Below are positions 4,797 to 42,681 of a stretch of 63,805 nt of DNA, piece after piece. Made by a program: the position numbers and the translations under genes. Source of the DNA: Myxococcales bacterium (GTDB taxonomy: Bacteria; Myxococcota; UBA727; GCA-2721815); assembly GCA_002721815.1 (NCBI GenBank), contig PBLQ01000056.1, positions 1 to 63,805 on the forward strand, given 5' to 3'. The notes beneath the pieces were generated by a model. That model worked only from the letters and a program-made list of their open reading frames with translations. It was not told the origin of the DNA and did no database searches. Each line of letters starts with the position of its first letter. The stretch's first letter is position 1.

Positions 4797-7700
4797 ATGC
4801 ACCGTTGGTTATTCTGCTGCTTTTTAAGCGCTGCGTTTTTGAATTTAGCCGGTTGTCCGGGTCAGGGTCTTGAAAACCCGCCCGATGATGCGCCCCAAGA
4901 CAAGCCCAAAGACGATCCACCAAAACCTCAAATGGATGCGGGCAGTGACACCCCTGAACCTGAAACAGATGCAGGCAATGAAACGCCGGAACCTGTAATT
5001 GATGCGGGCAGTGACACCCCTGAACCTGAAACAGATGCAGGCAATGAAACACCGGAACCCGAAATGGATGCGGGAAGTGATACCCCTGAACCTGAAACAG
5101 ATGCAGGCAATGAAACGCCGGAGCCTGAAATGGATGCGGGAAGTGATACCCCTGAGCCTGAAGCAGATGCAGGCAATGAAACGCCGGAGCCTGAAATGGA
5201 TGCGGGCAATGAAACGCCGGAGCCTGAAATGGATGCGGGCAGTGACACTCCTGAAACTGAAACAGATGCAGGTAATGAAACAACAGAACCCCAGGTAGAT
5301 GCAGGCAATGAAACCCCAGCTCCAGAAACAGACGCTGGCAACACAGTGGTGGCCGACACCACCCCGCCCGAAACCAGTTTGGATTCCCATCCCGAGGCTT
5401 TGACCAACAACCCGCAGGCCACCTTCGCCTTTAGTGCCAATGAATCACCTGCCACTTTTCAATGCAGTTTGAATGGTGCCAGCCCGGCTACGTGCACCTC
5501 ACCTCACTCACTCACCCTCAGCAACGATGGCGAACATAGTTTTTCGGTGTATGCCGTTGACGAAGCGGGCAATGCCGATGCCACGCCAGAAAGCTTTACG
5601 TGGACGTTGGATACCACGGCGCCGACCACCATCATCGACAGTGCGCCTGACGCCTTAACCAACCAAACCGAAGCGGTTTTCGAGTTTTACAGCAACGACG
5701 GCGAAGCCACTTATGAATGTCAGCTGGACAACGCCGATTTTTTGCCGTGTACCTCCCCGAAAGCTTATACCTTAACCCAAGACGGCCCCCATTTCTTTAC
5801 GGTGCGCGCCACCGATGCCCTGGGCAATGTTGAGAGCAATGGTGCAGGGTTTATTTGGGACTTGGACACCGCGGCGCCGGTGACCACTGTTTTGACGGGT
5901 CCAGAACCCATCAGTGCATCCGTTGATACCACCATTACTTTTGAAGCCGATGACTCGGTCGCTATTTTTTATTGTCGATTCAACAGTGACCCTTTCGAGA
6001 TCTGTACTTCACCTCACGTCTTTACAGGGCACGCCGAAGGTACTCACGTTTTTGAAATTTACGCGACCGACGCTTTAGGCAACCAAGAATCCCCTTCTGT
6101 CTTGTGGGCCTTTGAAATATCTATGTGTGGAAACCTTGTCATTGACGCTGGTGAAGCATGTGATGGGCCTCAAGATTGTGTTGCGATCGATGCGAATCGC
6201 TTCTCAGCGGGTGCTGCGTTATGCAGCGATGATTGCACCTCTCAAAGTCTGGATACTTGCAGCATTCAACTGTTTTCTGGTGAAGAAGAACCCAGCATTG
6301 CAATTCTGAACGACATCTATTTTCGTGACAACATGCATTCCCCAATGGACATCGGCGACATCGACGCTGATGGCGATCTTGATGTCATCGTAGGTTATAA
6401 CCGTAATTTTCACGACCCGCTCCTACGCATTTTTCTGAATGACGGTGCTGCCAATTTCACTGCCAGCAGTGAGGATTTTTCTTTAGACTTTTCTTCTTCC
6501 GCTCTGTCCGAAGTGGCCTTGATTGATGTGGATCAAGACGAACTGCTAGACATCATGGTCTACGTCAAAGGCTATTCCACCGATTATTCGGCTTGGCTCC
6601 GCAACACCGAAAATGGAGACTTCGATGAAGTCACCTACCAAAACGAAAACTACAACGGCAACTTCGGCGTCTTTGACATTAATGGTGATAACCGCATGGA
6701 TATGGTCGGAACCAACCCACTGCACTGGATGGCAAACAACTGGAACGATGAATTTCCCACAACCACCGTATTCAGCGCTGCGGACCATCATCATGTGCTT
6801 TGCTACGACTACGATCGCGATACAGACTTGGATTGCTTTGGCAGCAAAGATTACAGCTCTGCTGAGCGGGTTTATGTCTATACCAACACTGGGGAAAGCA
6901 CTTTTGAAACTGCCTATGGCAACCGAGACTACGTATTCATACTGTTAAAGGTGGTTCATCAATTTTTCTTTGCGGACATCACTGGAGACAATTGGCCGGA
7001 TTTGGTTGTCATCGATCTTGAAGGCGTTCACTGGTACCCAATCGATGCTCAAGGGTTCGTTTTTAAAAACGCCGATACCAACCATGCGGTAAAAAATACA
7101 ATCATGGAGTTTCCTCATTCCACCAACAGTTCCTGGAATGGTGGCGGGCGCGCAGCAGTTGCAGATCTCGACGACGACGGCGATTCAGACCTCGTGGTCG
7201 CGATCAAAGGCACACATTATAATGACTTCCAAAACGGTGAGCTGATTTGGCTTGAAAACGATGGCCGAGGGGACTTCGAAAGCCGTTTCATCACCAACCA
7301 AATAAACGACAACACAGATATCAAGGTGGGCGATTTCGACAGCGACAATGACCTCGATATTATTTACCTGTCCGAAAGCAACGAACAGCTGGGTTGGTTT
7401 AAAAACCTGCTTTATGATTGCGAACCCGGTTTCACAGGTGGTGTGACACCTGGTGCGTGCAACGCCTGTATGTCAAACAATGCCAACCTGCCCGATTGCA
7501 CCACTTGCAATGCAGGCTGGTCAGGCGCGTACTGCAACGTTCCACCTCCAACACCAACCACCACACTGATCGACACCCCTCCCACTCACACACCGGATGA
7601 TACAGCAGAATTCACCTTTTCCAGCGATGATGCCACTGCCACTTTTGAATGCCGCATCAATAATGATGATTTTGCTTCTTGCACTTCGCCTCATTCCGTA

Positions 7701-10514
7701 ACCATTCTTGTTGACAGTTTTAACACCTTTGAAGTTCGAGCGACCAGCGCACTGGGCCGAACCGAAACAATCCCAGCATTTTTCACCTGGACGCGGGACA
7801 ACATCGCCCCCCAAACCAGCAACCTCACTGGGCCCGAATCAATCCATCACGAAACAAGTGTCTCCTTTGATTTTGAAGCCACGGAAGACCACGTTTCCTT
7901 TTTCTGTCGAATGAATACCGACGCTTTTGAGCCGTGCAATACGCCCCATACTGTCACCGAACTTACGGAAGGCAATTATACTTTTGAAATCTACGCAGTC
8001 GATGCGGCAGGCAACACCGAAGCCACACCCAAACAACTGTCTTTCGAAATAGACTTTTGCGGTAACGGCATTTTGGATGCAGAAGAATTCTGTGATGCAC
8101 CCATGGAATGCACCACCATCGATAACGACCAATATATTGGTGGCAACGCAACCTGCAACGCCTCTTGCACCGGTTACGATGTCGAATCTTGCCAATTGCG
8201 CGTTTTCGGTTTGGCACCCGTTTACATTGACACCGATGAACGTCGTTATACGGCATTATTAGCAGCTGATATCAACGATGACGGCTATACGGACATTGTC
8301 GTGAACTCTTCCGCCGGGAGCGGTACCGAATTGGGTCTCGAGTGGTACGAAAACAACAGCGGCGAGGGCTATACCAAACATGAGATTCCTCCATTATACA
8401 ATTCCAGTGTGAGTGAAGTGTTTGTTACTGCGATCGATTTTGATGGGGACGGTGACAATGATATCATCACCCGCGGCTACGGTTTTTACGACCATCTGCT
8501 GTTTTGGCATAAGAATAACGGACAAAATGATTTCACAACCCAGTCTTATTCCTTTTTTCAAACGCAAGAGAACCTGCGAAGCGCCGACATCGCCGACCTG
8601 GATCGGGATGGCGATTGGGACATCATCACCAGCGGTGACTTAAAATACGTGGCCTGGCATGAAAATGACGGCAACGAAAACTTCACCTCTCACATCATTG
8701 AAAACGAATTATGGGAAATCAATGCTGCGCATCCCGTTGATCTTGATGAAGACGGTCACCAAGACCTTGTGGTGACCACCCGTGAAAACGATATTTTTTG
8801 GTATAAGCATGATGGTTTTGGAGGATTCTCCAAAAACGACATTAAAACGGTCACTCAAGACGGAAACACAAAATTGGCAATCGCAGATGTCGATAAAGAT
8901 GGTGATCTTGATATTGTTACTGGCACCCACATATCAAGCGGCGGTAGCACCCAAATAGCTTGGCTCGAAAATGATGGCAGTGAAAATTTCACAGCGAATA
9001 ATTTAAACACACCCTTTCAAGCTTATGTTTCTGTTTACGCCATGGATCTGGACGCGGACAATGACATTGATATCATTGCGGCTCCCAGAAGCAATGGTGA
9101 GCAAGCCATCTATTGGTACGAAAACGACGGAACGCAGAATTTTGAGCTGGGAACCATCATCGAAGATTACTACGTTTTATCCGCAGCAGATATGGATAAT
9201 GATGGTGATAAAGACATTGTTTTCAGCACGGAGTTTGACTGGCCCACACAGCAAATTGGAATCATCAATAATCAAAGATTCGATTGTGAATGGGGTTTTA
9301 CCGGTACCGACTGTGATCGCTGTACTTTTTCTAACCATGTTGCTGAAGGTGATTGTCCCATTGCGCCACACACCTTTTTGTTAACTGCTCCCGAATTTTC
9401 CTCTACAGACAATGAACCCGTATTTACATTTGTAGGGAATACAGATGACGCGACATTTGAGTGTCGTATCGATGAAGGGGACTATCTGCCCTGTATTTCT
9501 CCCTTTCAAACCAGCCCGCTCAGCGTGGGTTCGCACCGAGTCAATATTCGCTCCATCTCCGCTGAAGGTTTTGAAGACACCACCCCTACTGTTTCTATTT
9601 TCTGGGTCGAAGAAAACACCAACGAATGTGAACTCCAAACCGACAATTGCCACGCACTGGCCACTTGCACCGATACAGAAGACAGTTTTGAGTGTGACTG
9701 TCTCCCGGGGTATTCAGGTGATGGTGTGAGTTGTGAAGACATCGATGAATGCGATACGGGTGAACATGATTGCGTTCACCCCAACGCCTGCGAAAACACC
9801 ACCGGCAGCTTCCAATGCGTTTGCGCCGAGGGCTACACCGAGCAGCCCGAACACACCCCCTGCGCTGACATTGACGAATGCGCCCTCATTGCCGCTGATG
9901 TAACGGGCGAAACCCTCACCTATTTTAGCCCCGAAGAAATCATCCCCTGCTACGATGCACCGCGCATGAACCGTTGCCCCGATAATGCCGTGGCCATTGG
10001 CTTACATGCGGATTGGTACGTGTTCGCTAAAAACCTCGAACTCCTGTGCCAAGGCTTTGATGAAAATGGCGCTTTAAACGACAACACGCAAAACACCGCC
10101 GCCATGGGTGATCCGTCAACCAGCAGCGGTGAAGTGCTCTGTCCCGCCGGACAAGTGGCAGTGGCCGCGAGTCTCGAAATGTCTTTTGGTTCTCACTATT
10201 ATCGAATTGGCCGCATGCGTTTGGACTGTGCCCCCATCAGCGAAGTGCTCAGTGCCAATGCCAACCCCACCCTCACCCCAACCGATTGGGCGCCCACTTA
10301 CAGCATCCATGACACTGAACACAGCCACACCTGTCCCGCCGGAGCGGTGATTACGGGAATCGATGGCCAAATCCCCCAACTCAACAGTGATCATGTGGCC
10401 AATATTCGCGTGGCTTGCAGACCCCTGCAGCAAAGAAGCATGCCCCTTCACGATTGTGACGCTTCAACCACCTGCGTGAACGAGCCGGGAGGCTACACCT
10501 GCCAAAGCGACTAA
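4797..10514 (+). CDS. 1905-aa lipoprotein with Ig-like domains, two FG-GAP propellers and EGF-like modules
   Basis: Strong AGAGGGGG ribosome site before the ATG. Lipobox L-A-G-C at about 17-20. A D-A-G-S-D-T-P-E-P-E type spacer (about 46-185) would act as a stalk. Three bacterial Ig-like domains of the E-x-x-F-x-C-x-L-D...C-x-S-P-H type follow (about 190-440), then a CGN...G-E-x-C-D Cys module and seven FG-GAP repeats (about 515-865). Two more Ig-like domains and a second Cys module lead to a second set of seven FG-GAP repeats (about 1155-1500). After another Ig-like domain come calcium-binding EGF-like modules (about 1605-1700, D-I-D-E-C) and a C-terminal Cys-containing domain I do not recognise. 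Probably an outer-surface, calcium-dependent adhesin or matrix protein; the ligand is unknown. Confidence 0.88.
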   Translation: MHRWLFCCFLSAAFLNLAGCPGQGLENPPDDAPQDKPKDDPPKPQMDAGSDTPEPETDAGNETPEPVIDAGSDTPEPETDAGNETPEPEMDAGSDTPEPETDAGNETPEPEMDAGSDTPEPEADAGNETPEPEMDAGNETPEPEMDAGSDTPETETDAGNETTEPQVDAGNETPAPETDAGNTVVADTTPPETSLDSHPEALTNNPQATFAFSANESPATFQCSLNGASPATCTSPHSLTLSNDGEHSFSVYAVDEAGNADATPESFTWTLDTTAPTTIIDSAPDALTNQTEAVFEFYSNDGEATYECQLDNADFLPCTSPKAYTLTQDGPHFFTVRATDALGNVESNGAGFIWDLDTAAPVTTVLTGPEPISASVDTTITFEADDSVAIFYCRFNSDPFEICTSPHVFTGHAEGTHVFEIYATDALGNQESPSVLWAFEISMCGNLVIDAGEACDGPQDCVAIDANRFSAGAALCSDDCTSQSLDTCSIQLFSGEEEPSIAILNDIYFRDNMHSPMDIGDIDADGDLDVIVGYNRNFHDPLLRIFLNDGAANFTASSEDFSLDFSSSALSEVALIDVDQDELLDIMVYVKGYSTDYSAWLRNTENGDFDEVTYQNENYNGNFGVFDINGDNRMDMVGTNPLHWMANNWNDEFPTTTVFSAADHHHVLCYDYDRDTDLDCFGSKDYSSAERVYVYTNTGESTFETAYGNRDYVFILLKVVHQFFFADITGDNWPDLVVIDLEGVHWYPIDAQGFVFKNADTNHAVKNTIMEFPHSTNSSWNGGGRAAVADLDDDGDSDLVVAIKGTHYNDFQNGELIWLENDGRGDFESRFITNQINDNTDIKVGDFDSDNDLDIIYLSESNEQLGWFKNLLYDCEPGFTGGVTPGACNACMSNNANLPDCTTCNAGWSGAYCNVPPPTPTTTLIDTPPTHTPDDTAEFTFSSDDATATFECRINNDDFASCTSPHSVTILVDSFNTFEVRATSALGRTETIPAFFTWTRDNIAPQTSNLTGPESIHHETSVSFDFEATEDHVSFFCRMNTDAFEPCNTPHTVTELTEGNYTFEIYAVDAAGNTEATPKQLSFEIDFCGNGILDAEEFCDAPMECTTIDNDQYIGGNATCNASCTGYDVESCQLRVFGLAPVYIDTDERRYTALLAADINDDGYTDIVVNSSAGSGTELGLEWYENNSGEGYTKHEIPPLYNSSVSEVFVTAIDFDGDGDNDIITRGYGFYDHLLFWHKNNGQNDFTTQSYSFFQTQENLRSADIADLDRDGDWDIITSGDLKYVAWHENDGNENFTSHIIENELWEINAAHPVDLDEDGHQDLVVTTRENDIFWYKHDGFGGFSKNDIKTVTQDGNTKLAIADVDKDGDLDIVTGTHISSGGSTQIAWLENDGSENFTANNLNTPFQAYVSVYAMDLDADNDIDIIAAPRSNGEQAIYWYENDGTQNFELGTIIEDYYVLSAADMDNDGDKDIVFSTEFDWPTQQIGIINNQRFDCEWGFTGTDCDRCTFSNHVAEGDCPIAPHTFLLTAPEFSSTDNEPVFTFVGNTDDATFECRIDEGDYLPCISPFQTSPLSVGSHRVNIRSISAEGFEDTTPTVSIFWVEENTNECELQTDNCHALATCTDTEDSFECDCLPGYSGDGVSCEDIDECDTGEHDCVHPNACENTTGSFQCVCAEGYTEQPEHTPCADIDECALIAADVTGETLTYFSPEEIIPCYDAPRMNRCPDNAVAIGLHADWYVFAKNLELLCQGFDENGALNDNTQNTAAMGDPSTSSGEVLCPAGQVAVAASLEMSFGSHYYRIGRMRLDCAPISEVLSANANPTLTPTDWAPTYSIHDTEHSHTCPAGAVITGIDGQIPQLNSDHVANIRVACRPLQQRSMPLHDCDASTTCVNEPGGYTCQSD
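4933..5345 (+). repeat. 66-bp tandem repeat encoding an acidic Pro/Glu stalk
   Basis: About six units of 66 bp (22 aa: D-A-G-S-D-T-P-E-P-E-T then D-A-G-N-E-T-P-E-P-E-M), some shortened to the half unit. Near-identical copies keep the frame, so slippage or recombination would change stalk length without breaking the gene. Confidence 0.85.
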
Positions 10515-24095: not shown

Positions 24096-25058
24096 ATGTC
24101 CGTGGCCGTTGAAGAATTACTTGGAGAAGATGCTTCAGAACTCCAACTTGTGTTGCACACGGGTGACGTGGGGATGACCCGACAAATCAAAAAGGAACGT
24201 ATCCAAAAACCCGGACTGGCCCTCACCGGCTTCAATGTTTTCGTTCATAATGATCGGGTGCAAATATTGGGCAGTACCGAATTGGCTTTTCTCAACCAAA
24301 TGAATCCCAGCGCGCGGGAAGAAAGCTGCGCCTTCCTGTGCGAAGTGGCCCCGGTGTGCATTATTTGCACCAAAGGCATGGCCATTCCCGATGAATTAAT
24401 CCGGCAATGCAAACGAACCAATGTACCTTTGCTCTCCACCCCACAACTGTCGTCTGTTTTCATCTCTAGGGTACAAAGCTGGTTGGCCGATCGATTGGCC
24501 CCCAAAACCTCCATGCATGGGGTGCTCACCGATGTTTGGGGTGTGGGCGTCTTAATTCTGGGTCAAAGTGGCATTGGTAAAAGTGAATGCGTTTTAGACC
24601 TCATTCAGCGAGGGCACCGATTGGTGGCCGATGACGTAGTGCAAATTAAAAAACACAGCATGGAATTCGTTTACGGTTCGGGCACTGCATTGCTCAAACA
24701 TCACATTGAAATTAGAGGCCTTGGCATTCTCGACATCAAAGAAATGTTTGGGGTGTCCGCGGTTCGCGATCGAAAACGAATCGACCTCGTTGCAGAAATG
24801 GTCATGTGGCGTGATGATGAAGAATACGATCGGCTTGGGTTGGAGGAGCGGCGCTTCCCAATCCTTGATGTTGAGTTACCCCTAATCACGGTACCCGTGT
24901 GACCCGGTCGTAACATCGGCTCGATCATTGAAGTGGCAGCCCGTAACCAACTTCTCAAAAGTATGGGCACCAATACCGCCGCCAACATTCACGAAAAACT
25001 TAACAAAGAACTAGCCCTTGGTCGTCGACGTACCTTCATGGGCGACGAAGTGGAATAG
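24096..25058 (+). CDS. hprK: HPr kinase/phosphorylase interrupted by an in-frame TGA
   Basis: Codons 1-268 give the HprK N-domain and most of the catalytic domain: catalytic His141 (M-H-G-V-L), Walker A G-Q-S-G-I-G-K-S at 156-163, A-D-D near 179, and the signature I-R-G-L-G-I-L-D-I-K-E-M-F-G at 206-219. Codon 269 (24900-24902) is TGA. The same frame then continues with P-G-R-N-I-G-S-I-I-E-V-A-A and 38 more residues to TAG at 25056-25058, giving the normal 320-aa length. The TGA replaces the first Arg of the conserved R-P-G-R-N motif, one C-to-T change from CGA. The enzyme phosphorylates HPr on Ser47 of the downstream ptsH product. The TGA could be a real nonsense mutation, a sequence error or read-through; the following C gives UGAC, a leaky stop context. 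rapZ begins 5 bases after the distal stop. Confidence 0.88.
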
Positions 25059-25063
25059 CATCA

Positions 25064-25927
25064 ATGTCATCAAAACGAATTATCATTGTGAGCGGCATGG
25101 CTGGGGGTGGCAAATCTACTGCAGCAAAAGCGCTCGAAGATCTTGGTTTTTTCGTGGTCGACAACATGCCGCCCCAACTCCTCGAAACATTGGTTGCTTT
25201 GGTGGAACAGTCTGGAAGCGAACTGAGGCGGTTGGCTTTCGTGGTTGATGCCAGAAAGAAAAGTTTCCTCAAAGGTTTTTTGCCCATCTGGAAACGCTTT
25301 AAGGCCAGTGATGACGACACGTCTTTGGTCTTCTTGTCGGCGGCCCAAGATGAACTGATCAAACGCTTCAAAGAAACCAGAAGGCGCCATCCCTTAGATT
25401 CTGGTGCGGGTATCCTTGATGCCATTGCCACCGAACAAACCTTACTCCAGGAACTTAATGCCCATGCAGATTGGCACATTGATACCACCAGTCTCAGCGT
25501 CCACGATCTCAAGAGGAAAATCACCAATCACTTCGGAGAAACTGAAAGCCCATCAACCTCCCTCACCTTGATGAGTTTCGGATTCAAATACGGCTTGCCC
25601 CCTGAACTCGATCTCTGTTTCGATGCACGATTTCTGCCCAATCCCTTCTTTATCGCAGATTTGAGACACAAAACGGGCTTGGACCAAGATGTCCAAGATT
25701 ACGTGCTGTCCCACCGCGAAGCCCACGAATATCTGACCAAAATTAAGGACATGGTGACCTTTCTCATGCCCAAGTATCATCATGAAGGCAAAGCCTATGT
25801 GACCGTGGCCGTGGGCTGTACCGGCGGCAAACACCGTTCGGTGACCCTCATCGAAACCCTGGCCAAGGCCCTCACCAAGCAGGGGCTCGACTTTCAGATT
25901 CAACACCGGGACCGTGAAAAAACCTAA
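25064..25927 (+). CDS. rapZ: RapZ/YvcJ family nucleotide-binding RNase adapter
   Basis: A 287-aa protein. Walker A-like G-M-A-G-G-G-K-S-T at 11-19, V-V-D-N-M-P-P at about 31-37, and the C-terminal V-G-C-T-G-G-K-H-R-S-V motif of the RapZ effector domain. In enteric bacteria RapZ binds small RNAs and controls GlmS; in other phyla it sits with HPr kinase as here. It is tightly packed behind hprK. Confidence 0.95.
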   Translation: MSSKRIIIVSGMAGGGKSTAAKALEDLGFFVVDNMPPQLLETLVALVEQSGSELRRLAFVVDARKKSFLKGFLPIWKRFKASDDDTSLVFLSAAQDELIKRFKETRRRHPLDSGAGILDAIATEQTLLQELNAHADWHIDTTSLSVHDLKRKITNHFGETESPSTSLTLMSFGFKYGLPPELDLCFDARFLPNPFFIADLRHKTGLDQDVQDYVLSHREAHEYLTKIKDMVTFLMPKYHHEGKAYVTVAVGCTGGKHRSVTLIETLAKALTKQGLDFQIQHRDREKT

Positions 25928-26535: not shown

Positions 26536-26817
26536 GTGCAAATTGAAAAACAAATCTTAGTCCAAAACAAGCTCGGCTTGCACGCACGTGCTGCCGCCAA
26601 GCTCGTGAAAGAGGCCAGTGCCCACGCGGTGGACATTGAAATCGGACGCCCCGAACTCATGGTGAATGCAAAAAGCATCATGGGTATTTTGATGCTTGCA
26701 GCTGCTCAAGGAACCGAACTTTCCTTGCGTGTTCAAGGAGAATCGGCAGCGGCCTGTGAGACAGCCGCCAACTCCATTGACGCCCTGTTTGCAAACCTGT
26801 TCGGCGAAGGCGAATAG
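26536..26817 (+). CDS. ptsH: Phosphocarrier protein HPr
   Basis: GTG start with AGGA 8 bases upstream. A 93-aa protein with phospho-His16 in L-G-L-H-A-R-A-A and regulatory Ser47 in N-A-K-S-I-M-G-I-L, the target of HprK. Both sites are intact, so HPr could take phosphate from enzyme I or from HprK. Confidence 0.96.
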   Translation: MQIEKQILVQNKLGLHARAAAKLVKEASAHAVDIEIGRPELMVNAKSIMGILMLAAAQGTELSLRVQGESAAACETAANSIDALFANLFGEGE

Positions 26818-40998: not shown

Positions 40999-42681
40999 AT
41001 GAAAAAATCAACGCTACTTCTCATCACATCCTGCCTGATGGCAGCCAACGCCCAAGCGGACATTGGCGACCCCTGCGACCCAGCCACTTTCACGGAAATT
41101 TGCGATGGCGATGAAGTCATTTATTGCGATGACGATACCGAAGCTGCGTTGAATTGCGGCGCAACCTATGGAGAAGGCGCGACATGTGCATCACTGGACG
41201 AAGGCGTGCTTTGTGCCGCACCAACCGGCGTTCAATGCATCACCGTGATCGACGAAACCACTTACGCGCTCCCCTGCATTGACGATGGTACTGGTTGCGA
41301 TGCTGCGAGCGATTACCAATGCGTTGCGAACGGCCCGCAATGCACCCCTCCTGCCGAGGATGAAGAATTTGAACACGTGTGCCAGGACAACAAAGCGGTA
41401 TGGGCCTGTCCTTTCGAAGATTCCGCCATTTACGACGACTGCACCGTGGTGGGTGGGACATGCAGCGAAGGCGATTTCTGCATCGATGTGCAACTGGGCG
41501 GCAAATGCAACGCTGACAGCCCAAGTACTGAAGATGGCGATTGGTGGAGCTGTGCAGCAGATCTCACCTGCTATGGGGCCGACGATGGTGTGGGCAACTG
41601 CATCCCGGACCGAGATAACTGCGGCGATATCACCTGGGAAGGCTCCTGTGCGGGTGATGTGGCTGTGTACTGTAGCGATGAAAACAGCGACCCCAACGCA
41701 GATCTTCGCACCTTCGACTGCGGTAACATTACGGGCGATGGTGAAAACGTCGGCAACTGCCACGTCTACGAAGACATCGGAGCTTGGTGCGCGGTTAAAG
41801 AAGGCGATCGCTGTCGCTTTGTCAATTCCAGCAATAACAGCACCATTACATTCCCTTGTTACGATGTAGACAATCCTTCCGCTGAGCTTTTCTGCAACAT
41901 GGATACCGGACTGTGTGAAACCACCAGCACCACCTGCCCCGAAGGCCAGGAGTACACCTGCGATGGCGATCGTCTCTTGCGTTGTTCCAGCACTGGAATC
42001 GTTGCGGTGGATTGTACCTCAGACACTTACCAAGGAACGGGCTGTAGCAACGCAGCATGCGTGGGGCTGATCGAAGGCGCATTCTGTAATGACACCACTT
42101 TCTTGTGCGCCGAGGGTTTGGCCTGTGTGGGCTTATCAGACACCCAAGCGGGGGTATGCACGGCTGGGGTGGACATGGATGGCGGCATCGTACCGGTCAT
42201 CACCAGTGCAGACGGTGGCATGCCGGACACAATCGATGCAGACGGTGGCGTTTCCAACCCCGGCGCTGGTGTGGGCTTTGGCGATGATGATGACGATGAT
42301 GATCGTGAAGAACCAGAACCAACCCCAGATGCGGGCGTGGTCGATGATGGAATCGGTCATGGTGGGATCGATGGTGAAACGGACGGCGCCACAGACGGTG
42401 CCACAGATGGCACTGCAGATGGCACCACAGATGGCACCACAGATGGCACCACAGATGGCACCACAGATGGCACCGCAGATGGCACCACAGATGGCACCAC
42501 AGATGGCACCACAGATGGCACTGATGGAGAACAGAGCCCTGAGCCCCGTCAAGACGCACCGGCCACAGCACCCGCTACCAGTGGTTGCGGTTGTGAAGCT
42601 GCAACCCCACACTCAAGCTCCAACCCAATGATGTTGGGCTTCTTGTTGCTGCCACTGTTGGCCCGGCGCCGACGCTATTAG
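40999..42681 (+). CDS. Exported Cys-rich protein A, two modules, MYXO-CTERM-like tail
   Basis: A 560-aa protein. Sec signal ends N-A-Q-A. Two related Cys-rich modules (about 20-190 and 205-395) share E-x-C-x-G-D-x-x-x-Y-C, G-x-x-C and Cys-Val/Ala spacing. Then an acidic segment, a T-D-G-T repeat spacer (about 455-512) and a C-terminal signal: S-G-C-G-C, a hydrophobic helix (M-M-L-G-F-L-L-L-P-L-L) and A-R-R-R-R-Y. That tail resembles myxosortase-type surface anchoring. The second module aligns with the whole of the protein at 43598. Function unknown; an exported, surface-attached protein is inferred. Confidence 0.85.
   Translation: MKKSTLLLITSCLMAANAQADIGDPCDPATFTEICDGDEVIYCDDDTEAALNCGATYGEGATCASLDEGVLCAAPTGVQCITVIDETTYALPCIDDGTGCDAASDYQCVANGPQCTPPAEDEEFEHVCQDNKAVWACPFEDSAIYDDCTVVGGTCSEGDFCIDVQLGGKCNADSPSTEDGDWWSCAADLTCYGADDGVGNCIPDRDNCGDITWEGSCAGDVAVYCSDENSDPNADLRTFDCGNITGDGENVGNCHVYEDIGAWCAVKEGDRCRFVNSSNNSTITFPCYDVDNPSAELFCNMDTGLCETTSTTCPEGQEYTCDGDRLLRCSSTGIVAVDCTSDTYQGTGCSNAACVGLIEGAFCNDTTFLCAEGLACVGLSDTQAGVCTAGVDMDGGIVPVITSADGGMPDTIDADGGVSNPGAGVGFGDDDDDDDREEPEPTPDAGVVDDGIGHGGIDGETDGATDGATDGTADGTTDGTTDGTTDGTTDGTADGTTDGTTDGTTDGTDGEQSPEPRQDAPATAPATSGCGCEAATPHSSSNPMMLGFLLLPLLARRRRY
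42379..42522 (+). repeat. 12-bp ACAGATGGCACC tandem repeat (Thr-Asp-Gly-Thr)
   Basis: About twelve near-identical 12-bp units with a few C/G or T changes. They keep the frame of protein A, so copy-number change would only alter spacer length. Confidence 0.9.

Follow-up and report, generated by a model that had tools for sequence, protein, structure and literature searches.

The hprK gene of this organism, which encodes HPr kinase, carries an in-frame TGA in a region where its relatives have a conserved sequence motif, and the question is what that codon represents. The original prediction named three options: a true nonsense mutation, a sequence error, or read-through giving two forms of the protein. 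The window analysed here is the whole stretch of 63,805 nucleotides that contains the locus. Within it, the hprK reading frame occupies positions 24096-24902 of the forward strand. Its 268 sense codons (24096..24899) encode the N-terminal domain, the P-loop GQSGIGKS and the HprK signature IEIRGLGIL, and are followed by the TGA at 24900-24902. Past this codon frame 0 stays open for 51 further codons, the 3' part of the gene (24903..25058), to a TAG at 25056-25058, and only 5 bases then separate it from the start of rapZ. The base directly after the TGA is a C, so that the stop reads UGAC. The ORF coordinates and the next base agree exactly with what had been noticed beforehand.

The gene lies in a cluster with the order rpoN-hpf-ptsN-hprK-rapZ-EIIA(man-type)-HPr-ptsI. 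Directly downstream of hprK on the forward strand is rapZ (25064..25927, from the ORF list), named from its sequence and context. The ptsH-like HPr gene, on the same strand at 26536..26817, gives a PF00381 match at 26542-26790 (E 2.1e-22); a serine site, NAKSIMGIL, can be read in its sequence, and its product is the expected substrate of HprK. Elsewhere in the window the ORF list includes large secreted-type proteins at 4797-10514 and 40999-42681, which carry repetitive acidic linkers (PETDAGNETPEPEMDAGS repeats and DGTTDGTTDG repeats).

The two parts of hprK belong together. With X at the stop, the translation scores 110.7 bits against PF02603 and 218.9 bits against PF07475, for which the cut-offs are 24 and 33.3, and the match to the HPr kinase C-terminal domain covers positions 2-170 of the 171 in the profile, with the stop inside it. 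Both the Walker A motif GxxxxGKS, as GQSGIGKS, and the HprK signature, as IEIRGLGIL, are present; the signature consensus is (I/L/M)E(I/V)RG(I/L/M/V)G(I/V)(I/L/M) (PMC2937029). Behind the stop the coding score is 11.3 in the hprK frame and at most -0.6 in each of the other five. Against five relatives of the same order, the part in front of the stop is 58-62% identical and the part behind it 60-71%. From the stop site to the end of the protein, 24 of 27 relatives have 45-56 residues and the other three 66-74; the distance is 47-49 within the order and 51 here. Profile, identity and length thus agree with the earlier claim for the 51 codons, and the segment, judged by its sequence, is a genuine HprK C-terminus without decay. 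If the stop is real, the intact 3' part makes the lesion a young one. Homology and the length of the 51 in-frame codons rule out a chance downstream open reading frame. A +1 frameshift at GTG TGA C is likewise rejected, since it does not restore the conserved frame and the downstream homology lies in frame 0.

When the C-terminal Pfam profile was run against the whole genome (74 contigs, 4.6 Mb, 98% complete, contamination estimate 2.6%), it gave one match, which runs across the stop with one TGA inside (E 2.3e-65). The profile search found no second hprK in the genome, and the gene is single-copy.

An hprK match was found in 40 of 58 genomes searched, and only in the genome under study does it contain a stop. 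At the stop site 25 of 29 aligned relatives have Arg, two Gln, one Lys and one Ser. The expectation that Arg should stand at this position of the R-P-G-R-N motif therefore holds for most relatives, but the residue is not invariant. Conservation of the TGA, which the original prediction had proposed to look for among close relatives, is not seen: none of the 29 has a stop there, whereas programmed read-through would lead one to expect a shared stop; the closest relatives compared are other families of the same order. Among other genomes of the order that have an HPr match, hprK is present in five of five, and it seems that hprK is kept wherever HPr is kept. Genomes of the order with 4.6-7.7 Mb keep both genes. 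In a family of the same order with reduced genomes of 0.3-1.8 Mb (f5; G005, G007, G009 and G011-G015) no hprK exceeds the cut-off, and HPr is likewise absent from all of those searched for it (all but G015); a second family of the order (f2) also has no hprK over the cut-off, and no HPr where this was searched.

It was also claimed that the genetic code itself is unchanged, and for general decoding this stands. UGA remains a stop codon in this genome. It ends 141 of 602 long open reading frames (about 23%) in 1.63 Mb of sequence, and in the window rpoN, lipB and sua5 end in TGA, as had been said. The gene for release factor 2, prfB, is intact (496 bits, no stops). The anticodon of tRNA-Trp is CCA, and a UCA anticodon occurs only in tRNA-Sec; among 32 tRNA-family matches and tRNA-Sec in this 98% complete assembly there is no Arg/UCA or other suppressor tRNA. 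Reassignment of UGA (tables 4 or 25) is ruled out by the use of TGA as a stop, the intact prfB and the tRNA set, and the mutant UCA tRNA besides tRNA-Sec that would mark a nonsense suppressor strain was not found among these matches. What the claim did not take in is the selenocysteine machinery, which lies outside the letters on which it was based. The genome encodes tRNA-Sec (UCA), selA and selB together on one contig (positions 6826-10075 of the stretch C51:38000-57000), the selA gene being named by sequence and position, and selD on another (C14:29121-30032). Because this machinery is present, selenocysteine had to be excluded separately.

Whether the hprK stop is exceptional can be judged from the rest of the assembly. 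A codon-bias survey of about 1.9 Mb, N excluded (contig C25 contains about 74 kb of N), sought stops with a strong same-frame coding signal on both sides; its recall was 0.66 for stops injected into long open reading frames. Most matches in the real sequence are adjacent genes that share one frame. Six are intragenic, hprK included: two TGA, two TAG and two TAA. The other five are a TGA in a TPR/protein-kinase gene (C10:70944), with Pfam TPR matches on both sides of the stop; a TAG in an lpxB-like gene (C51:16917) and a TAA in argG (C9:57580), in both of which the alignment to relatives and to solved structures continues through the stop; a TAA in a metallo-hydrolase gene (C25:286351), where a Pfam match crosses the stop; and a TAG in the gene of a hydrolase-like lipoprotein (C14:27000), identified from coding signal and sequence reading only. 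Since the three stop codons are equally frequent among the six, the cause does not single out UGA. With the recall taken into account, about 20 genes with a lone stop are expected genome-wide. That number is an ordinary load of pseudogenes for one genome, and it fits a normal burden of young nonsense alleles or consensus errors alike. No clear intragenic frameshift was found, in a test whose recall was only 0.24 without start codons. A control survey of one relative (G002) gives no usable comparison, since codon bias does not work as a guide there (recall 0.07).

The hprK case does not differ from the single-nonsense pseudogenes, or the lone stops due to consensus error, that are ordinary in bacterial draft genomes: there is one stop, the frame is intact on both sides, the neighbouring genes are intact, and several unrelated genes are affected in one assembly, as in such draft genomes. 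Taken together, the ordinary readings, an allele that is real and young or an error in the consensus, very probably account for the stop, and there is no evidence of recoding. Taken by itself, against all the other readings together, we give about an even chance to the view that the base is real and that the TGA is a recent nonsense allele. A one-base change in the sole hprK would have turned a sense codon, most simply CGA or AGA, into TGA. Ribosomes would terminate there and release a protein of 268 residues, in which the N-terminal domain, P-loop and HprK signature are retained but the last 51 residues are missing. Among these is the C-terminal region on which dephosphorylation of P-Ser-HPr depends in other HprKs, and the product may be unstable, or it may be a kinase whose phosphorylase activity is slight. 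A real allele is consistent with the single copy of hprK, with UGA as a normal stop in a genome that has no suppressor tRNA, and with the absence of the stop from all relatives. It also has company within the roughly 1.9 Mb surveyed, where five further genes each have one lone stop followed by an intact frame; because the six stops span all three codons, they favor ordinary nonsense substitutions over a read-through specific to UGA. Against it, loss of hprK is not obviously neutral, as all five HPr-bearing genomes of the same order keep the gene, and the survey of lone stops depends on codon bias, with its incomplete recall.

It is quite possible, though we favor it less, that the stop is not in the living cell at all. 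The TGA may have arisen as an error in the assembly or the consensus, or the assembler may have chosen the variant of a minority strain; the cell would then have a sense codon and a normal HprK of 320 residues. The assembly is in many contigs and has some estimated contamination, the lone stops of all three kinds fall in otherwise intact genes, argG among them, nothing downstream of the hprK stop has decayed, and relatives retain HPr and hprK together; these observations speak for an error. The difficulty lies in the rate that errors would require. By our own estimate, a genome with about 20 nonsense errors should contain several hundred wrong bases in all, or roughly 1e-4 per base, which is high for a polished short-read assembly. 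The failure to find a clear intragenic frameshift also speaks against error, although that test was weak.

Rather improbable is a leaky stop, at which a minority of ribosomes would insert an amino acid and so yield, besides the short kinase-type protein, some of the full-length bifunctional form, whether by design or as a remnant of function. UGAC is a weak stop context in work on E. coli; Poole et al. 1995 reportedly deals with the way in which termination efficiency depends on the next base. The C that follows the hprK TGA is consistent with leakiness, but chance alone would put a C there in about a quarter of cases. The frame stays intact downstream, as read-through would require, and in the TPR/protein-kinase gene the TGA is followed, as in hprK, by the codon CCC, though with only two cases this may be chance. 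Read-through of UGA would leave unexplained the lone stops that are TAG and TAA, two of each, and the TGA itself is conserved in no relative. Nor does the RNA offer a signal: the stretch downstream of the TGA is no more stably folded than its shuffles (z -0.17), and no Rfam family comes near its curated threshold there. The set of three options put forward at the outset was the right one, but its designed form of read-through finds no support, in view of the relatives and of the TAG and TAA stops elsewhere. It is highly improbable that UGAC acts as a natural switch, in which termination would give a kinase-only HprK, read-through a bifunctional one, and the level of read-through would set the balance of P-Ser-HPr. 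If true, such a two-form arrangement would be a new way of setting the balance of kinase to phosphorylase in HprK.

That the truncation is real and selected, giving a kinase-only HprK like the short alpha-proteobacterial type, is very unlikely, and yet the position of the stop lends it some appeal. In structure alignments the TGA corresponds to residue 268 of L. casei HprK/P, directly after V267; V267 could be recognized because, at the position preceding the stop site, 2qmh has F where 1jb1 has V. The L. casei V267F mutant keeps its kinase and almost completely loses phosphorylase activity (PMC3198936), and a paper on the structure of this mutant is cited in PMC9138534. The lesions are adjacent, but V267F is a point mutant and the present one a truncation. 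The HprK of Brucella acts as a kinase and has hardly any dephosphorylating activity (PMC2937029), and the alpha-proteobacterial HprK sequences compared lack the R-P-G-R-N region and have a short C-terminal tail of their own. By analogy, the 268-residue product could be kinase-only if stable, or else unstable. It shares with the short enzymes of Brucella and Sinorhizobium a translated product without the R-P-G-R-N phosphorylase region; in contrast to them, it keeps the N-terminal domain, ends earlier, and would lack the tail that the alpha-type proteins carry beyond the stop point. With the bifunctional HPr kinase/phosphorylases (PF02603 and PF07475; 1jb1, 1ko7) the gene has in common both domains, the P-loop, the signature and the C-terminus behind the stop; the difference is a predicted end of translation at residue 268 of 320, which interrupts the phosphorylase region inside R-P-G-R-N. 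The 51 unchanged codons give no sign of a long-standing truncation, and nothing else sets this stop apart from a random lesion.

The weakest case is that for selenocysteine: despite the presence of tRNA-Sec (UCA), selA, selB and selD, with a base composition of C51 much like that of other contigs, it is barely conceivable that this UGA is read by the genome's own machinery, as the site expects a basic side chain, none of 29 relatives has Cys there (only R, K, Q or S), and the RNA downstream of the TGA shows no SECIS-like fold and no match to a SECIS family in Rfam, so that the combination of Cys or Sec with a SECIS element that marks a selenoprotein is not found. The sampled part of the genome yielded no identifiable selenoprotein gene, and three molybdopterin oxidoreductases have no in-frame stop.

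A real and recent nonsense allele in the sole hprK is therefore the explanation we favor, at the strength given above, and the stop should be accorded little biological weight until the reads are checked. For conserved genes of draft genomes in general, the case suggests that a lone stop is best judged against the rate at which such stops occur elsewhere in the same assembly.
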